From an uncultured Oscillospiraceae bacterium (GTDB lineage Bacteria > Bacillota > Clostridia > Oscillospirales > Oscillospiraceae): 46,584 nucleotides of DNA. Within the stretch, counting starts at the first letter, position 1; each line of letters opens with the position of its first letter. Positions 1,334 to 45,895 of the stretch are shown piece after piece. Position numbers and translations under genes: made by a program. The DNA lies in assembly GCA_947631865.1 (NCBI GenBank), contig CANRNF010000016.1, positions 1 through 46,584 of the forward strand, read 5' to 3'. The notes under the pieces were generated by a model. That model was not told where the DNA came from. It worked only from the letters and a program-made list of their open reading frames with translations, and searched no databases.

Positions 1334-1783
1334 TCACTTCTTGGCAGTGGCATAGCCAGTGATGTATTCCCTAGTGCTGCTTCCACCGTCTTTTGCTGCG
1401 TAGCATTTCACGGCTGCGTAGTATTTCTCACCGGGCGTCACAGTGAATGTATATGAGTTGCCGTAGAGGACGCGATAGTGACCCAGCATGGATGCGGTAT
1501 AGCTGGAGGAGAGGGAGCCTACCGGCTGTGTGCTGTTCCATTTGTAGACAACGATTGATGTTGCCCCAATGGAATCCATGGGGCTTGTTCCCGTGGTGCT
1601 AAAGTCTACAGTAACCGTGCCCTTACTGTAACTACCGATAGAAGCATAGTACCCAGCAATATAGGCATCCGACTGGGGTTGCGTAGGGGCGGGAGCGGAA
1701 GCCGTCGCCGCCGCAGCTGGGATGGAAAACACGGTCATTAGTACCAGGATCAGGACTGTGACATGGATAAAACGTTTATTCAT
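1334..1783 (-). CDS. Small secreted protein of the ECF sigma operon
   Basis: A 149-residue protein with a clear signal peptide: MNKRFIH, a hydrophobic core VTVLILVLMTVFSI and a PAAAATA cleavage region. The mature part is rich in Ser, Thr, Tyr and Gly with alternating hydrophobics (SYTFTVTPGEKYYAAVKCYA), suggesting a beta-rich exported domain. The start at 1783 is chosen over an upstream one because GGAGGTG lies correctly before it and the signal peptide then begins properly. It overlaps the end of the anti-sigma factor gene by 8 bases and is the last gene of the leftward operon, so it may be the exported product or sensor partner. I do not recognise the family. Confidence 0.65.
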   Translation of the reverse strand: MNKRFIHVTVLILVLMTVFSIPAAAATASAPAPTQPQSDAYIAGYYASIGSYSKGTVTVDFSTTGTSPMDSIGATSIVVYKWNSTQPVGSLSSSYTASMLGHYRVLYGNSYTFTVTPGEKYYAAVKCYAAKDGGSSTREYITGYATAKK

Positions 1784-2657
1784 TTTGCACCTCCATATAG
1801 AGTGAATCAATTGTTTTGATTAAATCGTCTCTGTTCTCATAGCCATAGAGAAAACACTCAAAATTCTTCCTCCACCAGACAGCACCATAACTGTCCATGT
1901 TAGTCAGAATACTATGGTCTATGCCGCCGGCAGTGTAGACATCAGGAGAATCTTCATCGATAGAATATGAGTACGCATTACTATTTGAGTATGATGAGAG
2001 TTGTAATATGATCCACTGCTGATCTGCATTGCCGAAACTGAACGCGTATGAGGACGTTGAGGCCGTCGTAGTGGATTCGCGGGTAAGCATCTCATACCCC
2101 TCCGGCATCCATAGCGGGATCATGTGCGCCGGTGCATCGATGGAATCCAGAGCCTCAGCTATCTCATCATAGTACGCAGGCTTGGGCAGGGCGGTCGCCT
2201 GCGCTGGCGTCGTTTCGCGGGCCTGCCGTGCCCACAGTTCCTCTGTGTTCCATGTGTGGAACCAGCCGATCTTAGCCGCGGTAAAAGCCGTAGCGGATAT
2301 CAGAAGTGTTACGGCTGCAGCGATAAGAGAGAGCCGCAGCAAGCGGCGTTCTGCTTTTGGCCTGACAGAAGAGGCACTGACCGGCTCAACGGGATCGGAC
2401 AGTATCTCCTCATATAATGTCTTTTTGCCGGCGTTGGGCAGGTAGGACCGTTCAAACTCTTTCCAGGCAGCATCTGTGACTGGGGTGTGCTCCCGAGATG
2501 CTATCACCCCGGCTATGTATAGGGTCGCGTCGATATCTAGGCTGGCATCCGCCTCCTTTTTAAGTGCATCGTTTCTGAGGAGCTCCCGCAGTTCATCTGT
2601 GGTCATAGAGTCAAACTGGTAGAGATCCTGACGGCGTTGCTGTTCTGAACCTTGCAT
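1776..2657 (-). CDS. Membrane anti-sigma factor with DUF4367-type C-terminus
   Basis: 293 residues. The cytoplasmic N-terminal 105 residues are helical and charged (TTDELRELLRND and DAAWKEFERSYL). A single membrane helix (LSLIAAAVTLLISATAFTAA) follows, then an extracytoplasmic domain with PLWMPEGYEML and an alternating beta pattern typical of DUF4367, a domain often found on anti-sigma factors. It lies directly downstream of an ECF sigma gene with a good AGGAGGG binding site. The arrangement implies a membrane-anchored regulator holding the sigma factor until an envelope signal arrives. The signal is unknown. Confidence 0.7.
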   Translation of the reverse strand: MQGSEQQRRQDLYQFDSMTTDELRELLRNDALKKEADASLDIDATLYIAGVIASREHTPVTDAAWKEFERSYLPNAGKKTLYEEILSDPVEPVSASSVRPKAERRLLRLSLIAAAVTLLISATAFTAAKIGWFHTWNTEELWARQARETTPAQATALPKPAYYDEIAEALDSIDAPAHMIPLWMPEGYEMLTRESTTTASTSSYAFSFGNADQQWIILQLSSYSNSNAYSYSIDEDSPDVYTAGGIDHSILTNMDSYGAVWWRKNFECFLYGYENRDDLIKTIDSLYMEVQNE

Positions 2658-2710
2658 CTTAACCCTCCTATAGCGTATATGTCGAAAAGCGGCGTTTAGG
2701 GGACAGTGGA

Positions 2711-3205
2711 TCAGTCTTTTTTGAGTTTTTCTTTCAGCCGCTTATGAGAGCGCTGGAGACGCTTTTTGGCGGCCTCCCGGGAGATCCCCATGGAATCGGC
2801 GACATCCTGGACAGACATATGATGAAGCAGAAAGCTTTTGAGCATGCGCCAGTCCTCTTTACCCAAAAGGTCTTCACAGATGACGTCAAGTTCCAACTCA
2901 CCCAAGCGCAGAGAGCCATCGGCAAGCGGAACCTCCTGATAATAAAGAAGCAGGGCGCTCAGCTTAGCCCTGCCTCGGATCATATTATTAATGGTGTATT
3001 TCAAGGTCTGCATCAGCCAGCCGGGAGGATTCGGGTGACTGAGCAAGACCTCCGGTTTCGTGCAAGCGATAAGAAAAGTGTCCTGCACCGCTTCCTTGGC
3101 AAGGCTCTCGTCATGGAGAAGTGACCGGGCGTAAGCCAGGAGCTTTGGGTACTCCTGCAGATAAAGCGTGTGAATGCCCTGCCGCTGTTCCTCTGTCTCT
3201 ATCAT
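2711..3205 (-). CDS. ECF-type RNA polymerase sigma factor
   Basis: 164 residues with the two-domain ECF layout. Region 2 includes LYLQEYPKLLAYARSLL, AKEAVQDTFLIA and WLMQTLKYTINN. Region 4 at the C-terminus has the helix-turn-helix MSVQDVADSMGISREAAKKR followed by a basic tail. It overlaps the upstream XRE regulator gene by 4 bases (ATGA), so the two are coupled, and the membrane anti-sigma gene follows after 53 bases. It probably directs RNA polymerase to an envelope-related regulon; targets cannot be deduced from this window. Confidence 0.85.
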   Translation of the reverse strand: MIETEEQRQGIHTLYLQEYPKLLAYARSLLHDESLAKEAVQDTFLIACTKPEVLLSHPNPPGWLMQTLKYTINNMIRGRAKLSALLLYYQEVPLADGSLRLGELELDVICEDLLGKEDWRMLKSFLLHHMSVQDVADSMGISREAAKKRLQRSHKRLKEKLKKD

Positions 3206-3564
3206 TGGAGCACTTCCTCTCTGTGCTCCTTTTCCTGACGCTCCTTCTCGGCGAGCATGAAACGGATCATGTTCTCAACTGAGGTGAGGAAGCTGTCCGG
3301 CTGATATTTCAGAATGGCAAGAATGTTGAGAATGTGTGCGTCGCAATCACTGCCATAGAGGATGCCATCGGCGCTGACGCGGAGTACATTGATGATCCTG
3401 TATAGGTTGTATACACCCATACCCTTGTGCCCGAGTTCTACGTTTGTGTAGAAGGAAGTACTGATGCCCGCCTTCTCAGCAAGCTGTTCCTGGGTCATGT
3501 GAGCGTTGATCCGCGCTTGATACAGGTTGCTGCCAATGTTCTCTTGTAATTCGCTTTTGTTCAT
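3202..3564 (-). CDS. XRE-family transcriptional regulator
   Basis: 120 residues with an N-terminal Cro/C1-type HTH (IGSNLYQARINAHMTQEQLAEKAGIS, NVELGHKGM) and a charged C-terminal helix (LAEKERQEKEHREE). It is the first gene of the leftward operon XRE, ECF sigma, anti-sigma, secreted protein, and overlaps the sigma gene by ATGA. Its ribosome binding site GGGAGGG lies inside a perfect 14-bp inverted repeat (3563-3595), so its synthesis may be controlled by RNA folding or by self-binding of the regulator. Confidence 0.8.
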   Translation of the reverse strand: MNKSELQENIGSNLYQARINAHMTQEQLAEKAGISTSFYTNVELGHKGMGVYNLYRIINVLRVSADGILYGSDCDAHILNILAILKYQPDSFLTSVENMIRFMLAEKERQEKEHREEVLQ

Positions 3565-4105: not shown

Positions 4106-4945
4106 ATGAAAAGGAAGTTGAAATGCTATGAAATCGAATCATTTGCGGCTTATCTGCGGAGGGAAGAACGAAGCGAGGGGACTGTAAGTGCATATTTGGC
4201 AAATGTCCATTCCTTTGCAAAATGGCTGGGGGATGGTCATGTCACAAAGGAGGCGGTGGTTGCCTGGAAGGATGAACTGGCCCAGCATTATGCTCCGGCC
4301 ACGGTGAACGTGAAGCTGGCGGCTGTGAATGCTTTCTTTAAGTTCTGCGGCCGGCAGGACTGCTGCGTCAAGGCCCTGCGGCTCCAGCGCCGGGCCTTCC
4401 GGGACCCGGGGAGGGACCTGACAAAAACGGAATATGAAAAGCTGGTGGCGGCGGCGAGAGACAGCGGGCGGCCCCGTCTAGCGCTGCTCATGGAGACCAT
4501 CTGTGGCACGGGCATCCGTGTGTCGGAGGTGCAGTACATAACGGTAGAAGCTGCCCAAATGGGACGGGCGGAGATTGCACTGAAGGGGAAGATACGGACC
4601 ATCATGCTGCCGGGAAAGCTATGCCGGAAACTCCTAAAGTTCGCCAGGAAAAATAGGATTGCTTCCGGCGAGATATTTCTCACCAGAAGCGGAAAAAGCC
4701 TGAGCCGGCGGCAGATATGGTCGGAGATGAAGGCGGTATGCAAGATGGCAGGCGTGGAGCCGTCCAAGGTGTTTCCCCACAACCTGCGGCACCTGTTCGC
4801 CACCACATTCTACCGGGCCTGCCATGATATCGTGAAGCTGGCGGACGTGCTGGGGCACTCCAGCATCAACACGACGCGCATCTACCTCATCACCACCGGC
4901 GCGGAGCATGCCAAGACGCTGGAGCGGTTGGGTTTGGTCAGTTAG
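4106..4945 (+). CDS. Intact tyrosine recombinase, candidate invertase of the adjacent promoter
   Basis: 279 residues, the usual size of XerC/D-like recombinases. The N-terminal SAM-like core-binding domain (about residues 1-85) includes TVSAYLANVHSFAKWL. The catalytic domain contains all expected elements: Arg in GTGIRVSE, Lys in LKGKIR, His and Arg in HNLRH, His in LGHSS, and the nucleophilic Tyr in TTRIYL. The start at 4106 is chosen because AGGAGG stands 10 bases upstream, whereas the earlier in-frame ATG at 4073 has none. The gene ends 11 bases before a 12-bp inverted repeat bounding a promoter-bearing segment. Dedicated tyrosine recombinases are commonly next to the promoters they invert, so this is the likely enzyme. 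Confidence 0.85.
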   Translation: MKRKLKCYEIESFAAYLRREERSEGTVSAYLANVHSFAKWLGDGHVTKEAVVAWKDELAQHYAPATVNVKLAAVNAFFKFCGRQDCCVKALRLQRRAFRDPGRDLTKTEYEKLVAAARDSGRPRLALLMETICGTGIRVSEVQYITVEAAQMGRAEIALKGKIRTIMLPGKLCRKLLKFARKNRIASGEIFLTRSGKSLSRRQIWSEMKAVCKMAGVEPSKVFPHNLRHLFATTFYRACHDIVKLADVLGHSSINTTRIYLITTGAEHAKTLERLGLVS

Positions 4946-4956
4946 CGGAATAACAA

Positions 4957-4968
4957 CAGAATTGCACT
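4957..4968. repeat. Left inverted repeat of the invertible promoter segment
   Basis: CAGAATTGCACT, the exact reverse complement of 5228-5239. It starts 11 bases after the recombinase stop codon. A 12-bp perfect match over so short an interval is unlikely by chance (expected well below 0.01 by my rough count). The match does not extend further on either side. Confidence 0.75.
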
Positions 4969-5011
4969 ATCGTTTCCCATAACAGAGGTTTGACCCTTCC
5001 AAAATGAAAAG

Positions 5012-5042
5012 CCCATCCTGCATGTGGACCATACAGGATGGG
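5012..5042 (-). terminator. Hairpin inside the invertible segment, terminator-like on the minus strand
   Basis: CCCATCCTG (5012-5020) pairs with CAGGATGGG (5034-5042). On the minus strand the stem is followed by CTTTTCATTTT, which resembles an intrinsic terminator; on the plus strand no T tract follows. In the present orientation it would block leftward transcription into the recombinase gene. After inversion it would face the polysaccharide operon. Confidence 0.5.
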
Positions 5043-5071
5043 AGAATGAGAAGCCACGGGCACAGGAAAGC

Positions 5072-5102
5072 AGGCCGTTGAAGGATGTCGTTTCAACGGC
5101 CT
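5072..5102. repeat. 11-bp inverted repeat inside the invertible segment
   Basis: AGGCCGTTGAA (5072-5082) and TTCAACGGCCT (5092-5102) form a perfect 11-bp stem with a 9-base loop. No clear T tract follows on either strand, so it may be a protein site (accessory recombination or operator) or a weak terminator. It is separate from the 12-bp boundary repeats. Confidence 0.6.
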
Positions 5103-5158
5103 TGATGCGTATGCCAATATTGCTTGATTTGGATGTTTTTTACTGCCGCATACAGAGC

Positions 5159-5194
5159 ATACCACTTGATTAATGCGAAGGGATGTGGTATTAT
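5159..5194 (+). promoter_or_regulatory. Sigma-A promoter of the polysaccharide operon with an overlapping dyad
   Basis: TTGATT (5166-5171), a 17-base spacer and TATTAT (5189-5194) give near-consensus sigma-A boxes with ideal spacing. Transcription would start near 5201 and cross the right boundary repeat before reaching the first gene at 5279. A dyad ATACCAC (5159-5165) and GTGGTAT (5185-5191) overlaps both boxes symmetrically and could be an operator for a dimeric regulator. Confidence 0.75.
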
Positions 5195-5227
5195 TCTCTC
5201 AATTGTTAGCTGGGATCGTTGTATGTA

Positions 5228-5239
5228 AGTGCAATTCTG
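5228..5239. repeat. Right inverted repeat of the invertible promoter segment
   Basis: AGTGCAATTCTG, the exact reverse complement of 4957-4968. It lies between the promoter at 5166-5194 and the first operon gene, where the boundary of an invertible promoter should be. The ribosome binding site and start codon of that gene are outside the segment, so inversion changes only the promoter. Confidence 0.75.
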
Positions 5240-5278
5240 ACCTATCCCTCTGCCGGCGGAGAAAGGAGACCCGAGAAG

Positions 5279-6649
5279 ATGTGGACTGTGGGCGCGGATA
5301 TCACCCGGGAGGAGTATCTGCATCTTCTGGACACGGCGAAACTGCTGGACCGGGAACAGGCCTATCTGCTGGTGAAGGTGATGGCTACCACCGGCGTGTC
5401 TGTCCTGGGCCTGCCGAGGCTGACAGTGGAAGCCGTCCAAGACGGAGAACTGAAAGTAGAACATGACGTCGTGCCGCTGGCAGCCGGCCTGCGGGATGAG
5501 CTCACGGCCTATGCGGAGTGGAAGAATATCCAAACAGGGCCGGTGTTCTCCTCTAGCAGCGGGAAGCCTTACAACTCGACACAGGTATCCAGATTCCTGT
5601 ATGACCTGTGCCGCTCGGCGGGACTGGAGGAAGAAAAGTGCCGTCCAAGCGCGCTGAGGAAACTGTATCGGACCACGAAGGTGAAGATAGAGGCCAGGGC
5701 TGCCGACATGGTGGAACAGATCATGAACCAGCAGGCAGATGCCGAGCGTCTCCCTGTTTTGCCAAAGGTTCATGAAAAAACGTTTCCGGCGCAAAAGACT
5801 GCCGGAACGGAAGGTAAGCCGGAAGAGAGCGGCGTTCCATGGTCTGCGCCCGATGACCCCGGCGTTCTGATGACCCACGAGGATATTGATGGGTACATGA
5901 TCATCCTGCGCGCCAAAGGGCGCACAGCGGCTACCCGTCAGTACGGAAGCATCCTGAGGCAGCTCTACAATGACCTGCCGGAGGACAAATGCATCCGCAG
6001 GGGGACCCTGGCCCGATGGGTCGAATTGCTGCAGGAAAAAGGCTATGCACCCAACACGATCAACAGTTTCGCCATCGTGGCGAATGGGTTTCTGGACTAT
6101 ATCGGCCATCGGGAGTATCAGCTTTCGGACCTGCCAAAGCAGGAGAAGAATCCTCAGCCGGAGCTGACCCGGAGTGAGTACCTGCAGCTGCTGCAGGCGG
6201 CGAAGCGGCTGGACAGGGAGCGGGAGTACCTGATGGTGAAGTTATTTGCCTCATGCGACCTGCCGGTGCAGCAGCTTGGGAAGGTAACGGTGGAGGCAGC
6301 CCGTGCCGGCAGTCTGACAGTGGAATCCAGCGGCACACGAAGCGTACTGCATTTGCCTGGATGCCTGTGTCGGGAGCTTTTGTCATACGCGGAGCGGGAG
6401 GGCGTCGGCACCGGACCAATCTTTCTGTCTAACCGGGACAAGGCTATGTGCCGCGCCAGCGTTGTGAAGTCCATCACAAGACTGAGCGAGGAGGCGGGAG
6501 TGCCCAGCGTGAAGGGAAACCCCGCATGTCTGCGCCGGCTGTTTCGTAGCACACAGGCGGCGGTGGAGGCCAGCTTTGCGGTCTTTGTGGAGCAGGCAAT
6601 GGACAGGCAGGCGGAGCAGGAGCAGCTCATAGCAGGCTGGGAGGTATAA
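5279..6649 (+). CDS. Degenerate tandem tyrosine-recombinase-like protein (no active site)
   Basis: 456 residues from the ATG at 5279, chosen because AAGGAG lies 10 bases upstream and an earlier in-frame ATG lies inside the invertible segment. It contains two recombinase-type catalytic domains (about residues 7-155 and 288-440) separated by a SAM-like core-binding domain (about 195-280, with TRQYGSILRQLYNDLP and YAPNTINSF). Neither catalytic domain keeps the active site: GTGIRVSE of the neighbour becomes TTGVSVLG and SCDLPVQQ, HNLRH becomes SALRK and ACLRR, and no C-terminal LGHSS or Tyr box is present. It can still plausibly bind recombinase-type sites or the intact enzyme. As first gene behind the switch it may modulate inversion or silence related loci; that role is inferred. 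Confidence 0.7.
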   Translation: MWTVGADITREEYLHLLDTAKLLDREQAYLLVKVMATTGVSVLGLPRLTVEAVQDGELKVEHDVVPLAAGLRDELTAYAEWKNIQTGPVFSSSSGKPYNSTQVSRFLYDLCRSAGLEEEKCRPSALRKLYRTTKVKIEARAADMVEQIMNQQADAERLPVLPKVHEKTFPAQKTAGTEGKPEESGVPWSAPDDPGVLMTHEDIDGYMIILRAKGRTAATRQYGSILRQLYNDLPEDKCIRRGTLARWVELLQEKGYAPNTINSFAIVANGFLDYIGHREYQLSDLPKQEKNPQPELTRSEYLQLLQAAKRLDREREYLMVKLFASCDLPVQQLGKVTVEAARAGSLTVESSGTRSVLHLPGCLCRELLSYAEREGVGTGPIFLSNRDKAMCRASVVKSITRLSEEAGVPSVKGNPACLRRLFRSTQAAVEASFAVFVEQAMDRQAEQEQLIAGWEV

Positions 6650-6651
6650 GG

Positions 6652-7215
6652 ATGCAGGAGATACCGCGTAGTCAAAAACTGATACAGCGTCATCCAGTTA
6701 GACAGGCCCCCGAGGAGCCCGCGTTTATCCCGGAACCGGCGCCGAAGGAACTCACCCGGGACCAGTACATCGAGCTTTTGAAGATGGCGAGGAAGATGCG
6801 CAAGGTGCTGGCATATCTCGCTATGCGGGCCTTCGTCAGCACGGGCATTCAGCAGCAGGAGCTTCTGGTACTGACGGTGGAGGAGGTCAAGACCGGCGAG
6901 ATCCGGACGGAGGATAGGACCATCCGTCTGCCGGACAGCCTGCGGGAGGAGCTTTTGGCCTACGCCCGGCGCAATGGCGTCTCCAGCGGAGCGATATTTG
7001 TAAACAAGACCGGTGTGCCCACGAGTGTGATAACGGTCCGGGAACAGATTAGGGATGTGAGCCGGGCTGCAGGTATTGACGACAGCGCGACAAGCGCACG
7101 GGCGCTGCAGAACCTGTACAAGACCACCCGGGCGGAATTGATGGCCGAGACTGTGCAGCGGCTCATGAAGGAACTGCTGGACGAAGAGCAGGCGGAACAC
7201 GGGTGGGAGAATTGA
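6652..7215 (+). CDS. Second degenerate recombinase-like protein, catalytic domain only
   Basis: 187 residues, starting 2 bases after the previous stop. It resembles the two catalytic-like domains of the gene before it: LTRDQYIELLKMARKM, LTVEEVKTGEI, LLAYARRNGVSSGAIFVNK. The catalytic Arg position reads STGIQQQE, the HxLRH box reads ARALQNL, and no nucleophilic Tyr box remains. The N-terminal 35 residues are proline-rich and unlike a core-binding domain. Conservation of the fold without the active site in two successive genes suggests a regulatory or decoy role, not decay, since both frames are fully open. Confidence 0.65.
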   Translation: MQEIPRSQKLIQRHPVRQAPEEPAFIPEPAPKELTRDQYIELLKMARKMRKVLAYLAMRAFVSTGIQQQELLVLTVEEVKTGEIRTEDRTIRLPDSLREELLAYARRNGVSSGAIFVNKTGVPTSVITVREQIRDVSRAAGIDDSATSARALQNLYKTTRAELMAETVQRLMKELLDEEQAEHGWEN

Positions 7216-41560: not shown

Positions 41561-44116
41561 ATGAGTATCACGTTGTTTGAACACAACGACCATGCTTATC
41601 ATGCCGCCCTCGCCATGCTTTGCCAGACCGGTAAAGCTGCCGTGATCCACCCCACCGGGACGGGAAAATCCTTCATTGGTTTCAAGTTCTGCGAGGACTT
41701 CCCTGAGAAAAACATCTGTTGGCTCTCCCCCTCCGAGTACATATTCAAGACACAGCTGGAGAATTTGGCAGCGGACAGCGGGTCTGTGCCGGAGAACATC
41801 ACATTTATTACATACGCCCGGCTCATGACGATGGAGGAGGACGAGATCGCTGCCATCAAGCCCGACCTTATCATCCTGGATGAGTTCCACCGCTGCGGCG
41901 CGGAGCAATGGGGCGTGGGCATCCAAGCGCTCCTTACTGCTTATCCCTTTGTCCCCATTCTGGGCCTTTCTGCAACGAACATCCGGTTTTTGGACAACCA
42001 GCGGGATATGGCGAAGGAACTGTTCGACGGCTGCGTCGCGTCAGAGATTACCTTGGGCGAGGCCATCGCACGGAATATTCTGAAGCCTCCGAAGTACGTG
42101 CTCTCCGTCTACTCCTTCCAGAAGGACCTGGAAAAATATGAGGCCCGCGTGGATAAGCTGCGCGACCCTGTTCGCCGTGACCGGGCAATGGAGATGCTGA
42201 AGACGCTCCGCCGGAGCCTGGAGGACGCGGATGGGCTGGATGTAGTATTTGCCCGTCATATGCCCGAGCGCCACGGAAAATATATCGCGTTCTGTTCCAA
42301 TGTGGCGCATATGAACCGCATGATCGCCTGTGTGCCGGATTGGTTTTCACAGTTTGACACCCAGCCGCATATCTATCGGGCCTACTCCCCGGACCCGGCC
42401 ACCAGGGAGGCGTTTGCACAGTTCCGGGAGGATGAGAGCGACCATTTAAAGCTGCTGTTCACCATTGATATGCTCAATGAGGGTATCCACGTGGCGGATG
42501 TGGACGGCGTGATCCTGTTCCGGCCGACAGTCTCCCCCATAATCTATAAGCAGCAGATCGGTCGGACTCTCTCGGCAGGGAGTGAAAAGACGCCCGTGAT
42601 CTTCGACGTTGTAAACAATATCGAGAATCTGAGCAGCATCGGCGCGTTGGAGCAGGAGTTTGAGGAGGCCGTCCTGCGGACTGGAGGCAGCAAACAGGAG
42701 CAGGAGGAAATGCTCCGGCGTTTTCAGATCATCGACGAGGTACGGGATTGCCGACAGCTCTTTGAGCGGCTGAACAATGTCCTGACCGCTTCCTGGGAGG
42801 ATATGTACCGCTGTGCGAAGGCGTACTATGAGAAAAAGGGCGATCTGAATGTTCCCGTTGCATATAAGACGGAGGACGGGTATTCTCTGGGCACTTGGAT
42901 TTACACCCAGCGTGCCGTCCGAAAGGGACTGCAGCGTGGCATACTCACCGAGGAGAGGATCGCGTTGCTGGATGAGATCGGGATGCTGTGGACCGTCCGG
43001 GAACAAGACCGCTGGACGGAGTATTATGGGGCAGCAAAAGCCTATGCCCGGGAATATGGGCATCTCTGCGTTCCTGCACTTTATGTGTCACCGGACGGCG
43101 TGAAGCTGGGGGAATGGCTCAACACTTTGAAGACACAGCGCAAACGTAATGGCAAGGGGCGTTATCTGACGAAGGAACGCATTGCCCTGCTGGACGAGCT
43201 CGGCATGGCTTGGGATGTGGACGAGTATCGGTGGGAATGTAATTTCCAGGCTGCACAACGGTATTATGAGGAACATGGCAATCTTGAAGTGCCGAGCCAC
43301 TATCTGACGCCAGACGGAGTGAGTCTTGGCGGCTGGATACAATCCGTTCGGAGAAACTATAAAAATGGGCGCCTGGATGCGGACAAGATCCAGCGCTTGG
43401 AGTCTATAGGTATGCTCTGGAATATGGAGCAGGCACAATGGGAACGGCAGTACCAATTAGCTGCGTTTTATTATCATGAGCATGGGGATCTGGATATACC
43501 GTCCGCCTATGTAACGGAGGAGGACATCAAGCTGGGACAATGGCTCCAGCGGATGCGCCGCGACTACAAAAAGGGCGTTTTGGAAAAAGATCGCATCGAG
43601 CGGCTGGAGAATATTGGTGTCACATGGGATATGCAGGAGAATCAATGGGAGAAATATTACGAGGCTGCGCGGCGATTTTATCAGGAAAACGGAGATCTTA
43701 AGGTCGCGCCGAGATATGTGTCCCCGGACGGGATCCGCCTGGGATCATGGATACAGCGGGTACGCAAATGGTACAGAGCGAATAAACTGACAGCCGAACA
43801 AATCAAACGCTTGGAATCCATAGAGATGGTTTGGGATGGAGCGTCAGACAGGCGAGAGCGAAACTATCAGGCGGCGCTGGATTACTATCATGAAAATGGC
43901 GATTTGAATGTTCCCTATGACTATATGACCGGCGATGGCCTGCACCTTGGCTGGTGGGTGAAATACATACGCAAGGCGTATTGGGCCGGAAAACTGGATA
44001 GAGAACAGATCAAATACTTAGAAAACATCGGCATGATGTGGGGCCCGCCGCGGAAAGATAAAAAGTCGACCAAAGTGGACCCTAGATATACCCAGACGGC
44101 CTCTGGAGCCGGGTGA
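41561..44116 (+). CDS. DEAD-like helicase with six Helicase-Associated repeats
   Basis: 851 residues. Residues 1-390 form a superfamily 2 helicase core: Walker A VIHPTGTGKSF, DEFH box LIILDEFHRCG, LGLSATN, and the C-terminal motif IYKQQIGRTLS. Residues about 405-835 contain six repeats of 63-70 residues with the pattern A--YY--GDL-VP--Y---G--LG-W, each ending in IGM-W or similar, the Helicase-Associated (HA) domain. HA repeats are thought to bind nucleic acid. The binding site AAAGGAGGG precedes the ATG. It is not an obvious polysaccharide function and may belong to a mobile or defence-type flank. Confidence 0.85.
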   Translation: MSITLFEHNDHAYHAALAMLCQTGKAAVIHPTGTGKSFIGFKFCEDFPEKNICWLSPSEYIFKTQLENLAADSGSVPENITFITYARLMTMEEDEIAAIKPDLIILDEFHRCGAEQWGVGIQALLTAYPFVPILGLSATNIRFLDNQRDMAKELFDGCVASEITLGEAIARNILKPPKYVLSVYSFQKDLEKYEARVDKLRDPVRRDRAMEMLKTLRRSLEDADGLDVVFARHMPERHGKYIAFCSNVAHMNRMIACVPDWFSQFDTQPHIYRAYSPDPATREAFAQFREDESDHLKLLFTIDMLNEGIHVADVDGVILFRPTVSPIIYKQQIGRTLSAGSEKTPVIFDVVNNIENLSSIGALEQEFEEAVLRTGGSKQEQEEMLRRFQIIDEVRDCRQLFERLNNVLTASWEDMYRCAKAYYEKKGDLNVPVAYKTEDGYSLGTWIYTQRAVRKGLQRGILTEERIALLDEIGMLWTVREQDRWTEYYGAAKAYAREYGHLCVPALYVSPDGVKLGEWLNTLKTQRKRNGKGRYLTKERIALLDELGMAWDVDEYRWECNFQAAQRYYEEHGNLEVPSHYLTPDGVSLGGWIQSVRRNYKNGRLDADKIQRLESIGMLWNMEQAQWERQYQLAAFYYHEHGDLDIPSAYVTEEDIKLGQWLQRMRRDYKKGVLEKDRIERLENIGVTWDMQENQWEKYYEAARRFYQENGDLKVAPRYVSPDGIRLGSWIQRVRKWYRANKLTAEQIKRLESIEMVWDGASDRRERNYQAALDYYHENGDLNVPYDYMTGDGLHLGWWVKYIRKAYWAGKLDREQIKYLENIGMMWGPPRKDKKSTKVDPRYTQTASGAG

Positions 44117-44407: not shown

Positions 44408-44450
44408 CTATTTGCTTGAAATCTGCATGTGGATCGCATATCAGAAACGT

Positions 44451-44492
44451 TGGTCGCCGCAGAGGTGGAGCTCTGCGGCGGCCAGCTTTTTA
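44451..44492 (+). terminator. Strong intrinsic terminator
   Basis: A GC-rich stem, GGTCGCCGCAGAG with CTCTGCGGCGGCC (one G-T pair), with a 6-base loop, followed by AGCTTTTTAA. It is well formed for rightward transcription. It lies 45 bases before the IS element, so it also shields the neighbours from read-through. Confidence 0.85.
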
Positions 44493-44537: not shown

Positions 44538-45895
44538 GGTAGTGTAGAATAAGTTGCGCAAAAAGGAATAAGCAGAAAAAGAGACAAGGTTTGCAGTCTC
44601 TGGTAGAATGAGGTTACCACACTAAACATTCTTGAAAGGAGAAAGCAAACCATGTCCGAGAAGATTGTACAGCTGAACGAGGAAGTAATCAAGGGCCAGA
44701 TCAAAGAATTGGTCCGCGGGAGCGTGGAAGAAACACTTAACGAACTGCTGGAGGCGGAAGCCGAGAAGCTGACCCAGGCAGCCCGGTATGAGCGCAGCGA
44801 GGCCCGCCAGGGCTACCGCAGCGGCCATTATGACAGGAATCTTACCACGACCTCCGGCAATGTCACCTTGCATGTGCCGCGCCTCAAGGGCGTTTCCTTC
44901 GAGACAGCCATCATAGAGCGGTACCGCCGGTGGGAGAGCAGCGTGGAGGAAGCGCTCATAGAGATGTATCTGGCAGGCGTCTCTGTCCGCCGGGTGGAGG
45001 ATATAACAGAAGCCCTCTGGGGAACGAAGGTCTCGCCGTCTACAATAAGCGAGCTGAATAAGAAAGCATATGTGCATATCGAGGACTGGCGGAATCGTCC
45101 GCTGCAGGGCGGGAAATATCCGTATGTCTATGTGGATGGGATCTATTTGCGCCGGAACTGGGGCGGAGAATATGAAAACGTAGCCATTCTGGTCGCCATT
45201 GCTGTCAACGAAGATGGTTACCGTGAGGTCCTGGGCGCTGCCGAGGGCATGAAAGAGGACAAGTCCAGCTGGGTGAGTTTCTTCCAGTGGCTCCGTGGCC
45301 GTGGGCTGGACGGTGTGAAACTCATTATTGGGGACAAGTGCATGGGGATGCTGGAGGCCGTGGGCGAAGTATACCCGGACGCCAAGTACCAGCGCTGTAC
45401 CGTCCACTTTTACCGGAACGTTTTCTCAGTCATTCCCAGATCCAAGATGAAAACGGTGGCCAGGATGCTCAAAGCGATCCACGCCCAGGAGAGCAAGGCC
45501 GCCTGCCGGAAGAAGGCGAAAGAGGTGGCGGAAATGCTCCGGGCTATGCGACTGCCTGAGGCAGCCAAAAAAATAGAGGACGGTGTGGAGGAAACGCTGA
45601 CCTACACCGACTTCCCCTCCGAACATTGGACACGCATCCGAACGAACAACGTTCTGGAGCGGCTCAACCGCGAAATCCGCCGGAGGACGAGAGTGGTTGG
45701 CTGCTTCCCGGACGGGAACTCCGCTCTCATGCTGGTCTGTGCCCGCCTGCGCCATGTTGCCGGCACCCAATGGGGCAACAAGAAATACATGAACATGAAG
45801 CACCTGGAGGCCATGGAGGAATCCCCCTCTATTGCCTGCTGAACTTACCTCCCAGAGACTGCAAATTAATTTTGCGCATAATCCTTGACATTACC
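44538..45895 (+). mobile_element. Complete IS256-family insertion sequence
   Basis: A 1358-bp element. The ends are imperfect inverted repeats: GGTAGTGTAGAATAAGTTGC at the left and, on the other strand at the right, GGTAATGTCAAGGATTATGC, both continuing with GCGCAAAA. The element is flanked by TCTGCTCA at 44530-44537 and 45896-45903, an 8-bp target duplication typical of IS256. It contains one intact transposase gene. The insertion lies just after a terminator and breaks no recognisable gene. Intact ends and duplication suggest recent insertion. Confidence 0.88.
44652..45842 (+). CDS. IS256-family (Mutator-type) transposase
   Basis: 396 residues, full length for the family. The DDE residues appear in YVYVDGIYLRR, LIIGDKCMGMLEAV and NNVLERLNREIRRR; the MRLPEAAKKIEDGVEETL and RWESSVEEALIEMYL stretches are typical. 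AAAGGAGAAAGC stands before the ATG. The protein should catalyse transposition of the surrounding element. Confidence 0.93.
   Translation: MSEKIVQLNEEVIKGQIKELVRGSVEETLNELLEAEAEKLTQAARYERSEARQGYRSGHYDRNLTTTSGNVTLHVPRLKGVSFETAIIERYRRWESSVEEALIEMYLAGVSVRRVEDITEALWGTKVSPSTISELNKKAYVHIEDWRNRPLQGGKYPYVYVDGIYLRRNWGGEYENVAILVAIAVNEDGYREVLGAAEGMKEDKSSWVSFFQWLRGRGLDGVKLIIGDKCMGMLEAVGEVYPDAKYQRCTVHFYRNVFSVIPRSKMKTVARMLKAIHAQESKAACRKKAKEVAEMLRAMRLPEAAKKIEDGVEETLTYTDFPSEHWTRIRTNNVLERLNREIRRRTRVVGCFPDGNSALMLVCARLRHVAGTQWGNKKYMNMKHLEAMEESPSIAC

Follow-up and report, generated by a model that had tools for sequence, protein, structure and literature searches.

A putative invertible promoter with an adjacent tyrosine recombinase and catalytically degenerate paralogues ahead of a polysaccharide unit in gut Oscillospiraceae

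Overview of the locus

The window, i.e. the whole 46,584-nucleotide stretch of DNA analysed here, which is contig 16 of a host assembly of 3.0 Mb in 150 contigs (87% complete), very probably carries a phase-variation switch of the adjacent-recombinase inverton type, as judged from its sequence and from that of related loci. Specifically, a tyrosine recombinase (REC) adjoins a pair of inverted repeats that enclose an outward promoter and an opposed terminator, and the unit behind the switch opens with two catalytically degenerate recombinase paralogues (DEAD1 and DEAD2), followed by polysaccharide genes. The features are located as follows:

4106-4945, + strand: REC, tyrosine recombinase, XerA/XerD-like, catalytic residues R-K-H-R-H-Y; Pfam Phage_integrase (4e-25) and SAM-like domain
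4957-4968, + strand: left inverted repeat, composed of the outer half-site CAGAAT, the spacer TGCA and a final CT
4969-5227, no strand: putative invertible segment of 259 bp, ON orientation; 7 of 13 related loci carry it flipped
5012-5042, - strand: intrinsic terminator, 13-pair stem then CTTTTCATTTT; faces the operon once the segment is flipped
5072-5102, no strand: conserved dyad in mid-segment, AGGCCGTTGAA, 9 bases, TTCAACGGCCT; in 10 sequences, 8 of its 11 pairs do not vary
5166-5194, + strand: sigma-A-type promoter TTGATT-17-TATTAT, TG before the -10; flipped relatives have its equivalent on the opposite strand
5228-5239, - strand: right inverted repeat, exact reverse complement of the left repeat
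5279-6649, + strand: DEAD1, 456-aa catalytically degenerate recombinase, CAT-SAM-CAT; Pfam Phage_integrase
6652-7215, + strand: DEAD2, 187-aa catalytically degenerate recombinase, CAT only; Pfam Phage_integrase
7216-41492, + strand: polysaccharide genes by Pfam (not every gene scanned; 4 scanned genes without a Pfam match)
41561-44116, + strand: helicase carrying six HA repeats; final gene ahead of the terminator
44449-44486, + strand: intrinsic terminator of 16 pairs, end of the unit

Recombinase, promoter and terminator

The original prediction had placed an intact tyrosine recombinase before the left repeat, and REC fits this description: 11 bases separate the end of its stop codon, at 4945, from the repeat. 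Its frame is open from 4073, and the ATG at 4106, preceded by GAGGAGGT, is the more probable start codon. The recombinase next to the repeats carries the catalytic R-K-H-R-H-Y, whose columns are kept in 72-74 of the 74 aligned active relatives (the lysine as K or R), and its dN/dS against 8 relatives is 0.09-0.19. REC matches the NCBIfam model recomb_XerA_Arch at 1e-41, under the curated cut-off of the model, and its best named matches come from bins of the rabbit gut ("Lapin") that are labelled Oscillospiraceae or Lachnospiraceae. Upstream of REC, the minus strand encodes a DUF4367 protein, a sigma-70-like factor and an HTH protein (1776-3564).

Between the repeats lies the predicted near-consensus outward promoter (TTGATT-17-TATTAT, matching the consensus at 9 of 12 positions), which is the sole promoter-like match in a scan of both strands of the segment, so that the locus has inverted repeats around a promoter. 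It points out across the right repeat, in agreement with the prediction that the window would represent the ON orientation. The terminator at 5012-5042 faces away from this promoter and has a T-rich tail after its stem, which is preserved by covariation: in 10 of the 13 members of the window's cluster (L063, L096 and L066 were left out of the alignment), 7 of 13 pairs are changed on both sides and 99.2% of cells are paired. More widely, among the 42 segments that remain once 21 of 63 with a promoter score <9.5 are dropped, a terminator is opposed to the promoter in 22, half of which (11) belong to the window's own cluster, and in the same direction in 5, with 0.4 expected from shuffles; no terminator is found in 20 of the 42. 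The promoter of L063 scores equally on both strands, and assigning it by cluster orientation turns the opposed and same-direction counts into 21 and 6. Since an opposed terminator in the segment should block read-through in the flipped state, OFF would probably be doubly off, with a reversed promoter and an operon-facing terminator. After the mid-segment dyad (5072-5102), no T tract is seen in the window.

Inverted repeats and core sites

The perfect 12-bp inverted repeat of the original prediction is present: the left arm (4957-4968) reads CAGAATTGCACT, the right arm (5228-5239) is its exact reverse complement, and this 12-mer occurs in only two places in the whole genome assembly, namely the two repeats. 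When the 336-bp region 4943-5278 is shuffled with dinucleotides preserved, a reverse-complement match of at least 12 bp with at least 150 bp between the arms arises once in 2000 shuffles. Comparison with relatives indicates that the repeats of the window are degenerate forms of a putative recombinase core site made of a half-site and a 4-nt spacer. The site is clearest in the relatives, in which arms such as ACCACATAAT and ATTATGTGGT are separated by 4 free bases; compared with many of them, the 12-bp repeats of the window are short, and their inner half-sites are poor.

Related loci were collected from 88 recombinase rows, which come to 76 after removal of 12 duplicates and to 70 after removal of 6 with <300 bp downstream. 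In 63 of these 70 loci, a repeat pair lies at the recombinase stop; among 400 control frame ends (sampled from 505 open frames, real genes or not), 41 have one. With a score of at least 12, the counts are 55 of 70 against 13 of 400. The other 7 loci fail the repeat rule, leaving 63 segments. Among housekeeping Xer genes, 1 of 7 (L087) passes the rule, at the lowest score.

Tyrosine recombinases require identity in the crossover region, and the window has identical left and right spacers there, as an inverton should. Between loci, the 4-nt spacer mismatches at 67-75%; within a locus, left and right spacers agree in 61 of 62 loci (L063, at a contig end, is missing from the table of 63), in pairs chosen by identity. 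Because the pairs were picked in this way, the spacer test was redone with right half-sites found by motif alone: the left half-site is absent in 18 of 70 loci, and among the 52 scored the spacers agree in 41 and do not agree in 11, compared with 0.3 expected and 1.3 with swapped partners. Across relatives, the repeat sequences vary, yet they do so in pairs matched left to right at the spacer, a form of conservation that leaves the predicted switch standing.

Both orientations among relatives

Both orientations are visible in the comparison of related loci; a scan of genome contigs gives 37 loci that encode REC relatives, and genus-wide, some REC match is found in 35 of 35 genomes. In the close relatives read directly, the segment is flipped between collinear flanks in L003, L005, L007, L008 and L011, with the promoter towards the recombinase gene (OFF), and unflipped in L004, L006, L010 and the window. 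The 13-member cluster of the window divides into 6 members with its orientation and 7 flipped ones. By blastn, the 63 segments form 10 clusters with at least 2 members, of which 7 hold both orientations, and no pairwise strand-sign conflict occurs among the clusters; in ON members the promoter reads outward across the right repeat, and in OFF members it faces the recombinase. Both orientations thus occur in nature, among relatives that carry the same segment either way between unchanged flanks, which bears out the earlier reading of an invertible phase switch as far as genome comparison can.

A few recombinases are broken or truncated: one lies beside a 17-bp repeat pair (L038:3301-4181), another beside a dead paralogue (L122, contig 23 of the host genome, G000), and in L066 the gene is cut short or in pieces and the segment is flipped. 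The switches with these broken recombinases are possibly locked.

The unit behind the switch

The first gene lies just outside the right repeat, as predicted, and starts at 5279 behind the ribosome site GGAGAAAGGAGA. From here, the chosen frames run on one strand to 44116 with gaps of at most 68 bp. The original description of a 36-kb polysaccharide operon therefore holds as regards a same-strand unit with glycosyltransferases from 7216, and needs amending in two respects: its first two genes are degenerate tyrosine recombinases, and its length may be ~39 kb with the helicase gene at 41561-44116, which is possibly in the same unit as the polysaccharide genes. The region 7216-41492 encodes glycosyltransferases (groups 1 and 2), a GHMP kinase, SIS proteins, NTP-transferases, epimerases/dehydratases, an ABC-2 permease and an ABC ATPase.

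Counted over both strands, terminator-like sites within the unit are in excess of shuffles (25 against 14.8, and 25 against 14.1); on the + strand, no site with both 7 pairs and 5 G-C pairs is found before 44449, and the terminator at 44449-44486 satisfies both limits. A Mutator-family transposase (44652-45842) lies downstream of it. In an Rfam scan of the whole window, no family reaches its gathering score.

Catalytically degenerate recombinase paralogues

PHROGs gives matches to integrase families alone. The family of DEAD1 and DEAD2 has lost the residues of catalysis. None of 43 modules from the head-gene family keeps the first Arg, and none of the 42 in which the His can be scored keeps it; the second Arg survives in 31 of 43, and in every module the match ends before the last His and the Tyr. 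Fourteen further genes from the wider family show the same losses, with the exception of L167, which retains the first Arg and keeps neither His nor Tyr.

The paralogues accompany the switch. DEAD1 and DEAD2 stand behind it in all 9 window-type loci that run past it, further DEAD modules are present in L093 and L094 (same genus), and eight loci of a separate group begin with a large protein, which is followed by a single dead paralogue; two of these large first proteins, when scanned, have FIVAR domains. The number of modules differs between loci. Of 200 genomes of the family, at least 13, the host included, have DEAD matches of at least 190 bits. Among 14 wider-family loci, recombinase, repeat and dead paralogue occur together in 10 (repeat score at least 12 in 8, weaker in L157 and L164), and the recombinase is absent from the stretch examined in 4; in L166 the dead paralogue lies 2 kb further on. 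Six loci from other genera have polysaccharide or S-layer-type surface genes downstream. In the host genome, six contigs carry a dead paralogue: an active recombinase adjoins it in three (contigs 14, 16 and 59), contig 23 has a recombinase in pieces beside it, and in the stretches examined of contigs 102 and 44 the recombinase is absent.

A class-wide DEAD search (391 genomes, E 1e-45) matches 6 genomes, the host and 5 others, and as these five matches have active motifs, no dead paralogue is found outside the family in that sample. DEAD-like genes are also present in four loci whose bins bear other labels, namely Lachnospiraceae (L006 and L011), Acetatifactor (L024) and Peptococcaceae (L018), through either mislabelling or transfer, and one DEAD relative (L181) is found in a pattern-based scan of viral contigs. 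Between the window and L003 (4136-6649), silent divergence is high in the REC gene (dS 0.55) and low in the next gene (dS 0.13), a contrast that suggests exchange of the operon head between strains.

Other switches in the same genome

The host genome holds 12 switches with 9 different spacers: TGCA (the window), CGGT, TCGC, CAGC, TGGC, TCGT, GTTC, CCAC and CTAC. Such differences would be expected to prevent recombination between most of the switches. Isolation by spacer is not absolute, since spacers are shared between loci: CAGC is common to two contigs 95% alike, CCAC to three contigs 87-93% alike, and TGAA to two loci (L090, L092) of genome G020.

The cargo of these switches is diverse. On contigs 1, 2, 96 and 106 of G000 (L109, L112, L111 and L113), the switch heads large helicase-like genes, and its promoter is the consensus TTGACA-17-TATAAT, three being ON and one OFF in the assembly. 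HA repeats are shown for the L112 helicase, and a similar helicase closes the unit of the window (41561-44116); PADLOC gives only partial matches for the HA helicases, to helicase-bearing models. A 2236-aa protein with seven DUF7601 stretches (L109:3545-10252) and a protein of >2900 aa (L114:3066-11888) each lie behind a switch that is OFF by the promoter found. In many switches with helicase or adhesin cargo, the dead paralogue is absent from the stretch seen.

Proposed mechanism and alternative explanations

From these observations, we infer that REC itself does the flipping and that expression differs between ON and OFF. REC would bind the core sites in both repeats, exchange strands within the shared spacer and invert the 259-bp segment. 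In the ON state, the promoter would fire across the right repeat into the ~36-39 kb surface-polysaccharide unit; in the OFF state, it points towards REC, and the terminator, turned to the operon, would stop read-through. The dead paralogues would be made only in ON and could feed back on REC by protein contact, as hetero-oligomer or decoy, thereby biasing or locking the orientation of the segment. This feedback is proposed tentatively, with somewhat less than even confidence; against it count the many switches that lack a dead paralogue and the dead paralogues found in stretches that have no recombinase. Whether it would lock ON or return the segment to OFF cannot be told from sequence.

The charge of the proteins bears on how the paralogues might act. 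Active enzymes have a median net charge of +21 (+15 to +25) and dead modules of +3 (-2 to +10), whole DEAD1 and DEAD2 being at -3 and 0, and on account of this lost positive charge an action on the recombinase is preferred over DNA binding. The paralogues may instead be DNA-binding transcription or elongation factors for the operon, in a position like that of UpxY, and not regulators of inversion, an explanation that is unlikely and yet keeps some weight: the DEAD genes come first in the unit and profiles recognise their SAM and catalytic-fold regions, to which one can oppose that Pfam finds no NusG-type domain and that their low charge, in itself a weak argument, is unexpected for a DNA binder.

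That the paralogues are decaying duplicates devoid of function is improbable. The loss of catalytic residues and the variable number of modules would fit decay, but the frames are open and dN/dS stays at 0.2-0.3. Specifically, DEAD1 has a dN/dS of 0.21-0.28 against 8 relatives; for DEAD2 the value is missing for 4 of the 8, in which an overlapping frame was picked and DEAD2 is present. By these substitution ratios, the dead paralogue family is under purifying selection. It also forms one clade with its own conserved C-terminus across genera: a single branch (support 100/100) separates all 30 active from all 35 dead domains in a tree, with the labels taken from profile scores and with a warning from the program about long DEAD branches.

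Feedback of the paralogues on REC would also fit the agreement between partner distances, in which REC and DEAD correlate at r 0.656 over 30 loci (best of 2000 permutations 0.348) and, in partial agreement, at r 0.535 over 10 window-clade loci (0 of 2000 permutations); this correlation could arise from shared descent alone. A broader reading, held with slightly more reserve than the feedback itself, is that of a two-component inverton in which DEAD proteins as non-catalytic subunits may set the bias or the lock and in which about a dozen switches, through spacers that mostly differ, coexist with little crossing; within it, cross-inhibition between coats is possible.

Two further explanations concern the switch as a whole. 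A fossil switch, whose repeats and recombinase persist after inversion was lost in this lineage, is very improbable; the shortness of the repeats (only 12 bp) and their degenerate inner half-sites would suit it, but REC has an open frame with its catalytic residues present and under purifying selection, and both orientations, each with matching spacers, are found among relatives at 89-93% identity. Lastly, REC belongs to the integrase family and a Mutator-family transposase lies at 44652, but an integrase of a mobile element, with the repeats as attachment-site remnants and no regulatory switch, can hardly be entertained, as the repeats are inverted with an outward promoter between them in many loci, the cargo varies while recombinase and repeat stay paired, and one pattern-based scan of viral contigs finds no REC relative.

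Relation to known switches

In Bacteroides, capsule promoters are flipped by the trans-acting serine invertase Mpi, and the first genes of the operons are UpxY/UpxZ. The predicted match to such gut capsule promoters stands as a likeness of function, in that a promoter flips before a polysaccharide operon whose first genes are not sugar genes, and probably not as one of kinship: a tyrosine recombinase adjoins the segment, the first gene is not UpxY, and Phage_integrase is the only Pfam match of the two recombinase-like head genes. UpxY is described near Bacteroidota invertons (PMC11892184).

Another parallel is a clostridial inverton group (group 139) with tyrosine invertase group 35, presented in a study in Microbiome 2025 (PMC11892184); it includes Intestinimonas butyriciproducens, with orientation shifts measured in culture. 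The likeness, compared by description with repeat motifs aside, lies in clostridial invertons with a tyrosine recombinase nearby. Intestinimonas butyriciproducens has a REC relative (L015, 65% identity) with a repeat pair.

In the fim switch of E. coli, FimB and FimE are two active recombinases; as here, the promoter is on the invertible segment and recombinase genes are in the locus. For fim, a recombinase gene is followed by an orientation-dependent terminator (PMC2784873). The window differs from fim in having one active and several dead recombinases, the dead ones behind the switched promoter. In C. difficile, recV is not known to be adjacent to the cwpV switch. The cwpV/RecV system is similar in its clostridial tyrosine recombinase, short inverted repeats and OFF-linked terminator, as given in the same paper, in which the cwpV promoter is outside the inverted region (PMC2784873); in contrast, promoter and opposed terminator are here both inside the segment.

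Literature searches on inactive recombinases in inversion and on clostridial or gut invertible promoters return no dead inverton recombinase among the matches listed; moreover, the word "inactive" is absent from the main text of PMC11892184, whose passages used here do not mention a dead recombinase. Measured against these sources, clostridial tyrosine-recombinase invertons are already in print and the inactive partner is the new element.

Biological significance

Gut Oscillospiraceae, and thus bacteria other than Bacteroidota, have in these loci a coherent family of promoter switches with polysaccharide, surface-protein and helicase cargo. The sequence rule that describes them, i.e. spacers matched left to right and variable between loci, can serve to find switches and to predict which sites are able to recombine. 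If it is true that the DEAD proteins act on REC, the ON/OFF bias of an inverton would become directly testable, and the family would represent a domesticated inactive recombinase that controls phase variation.
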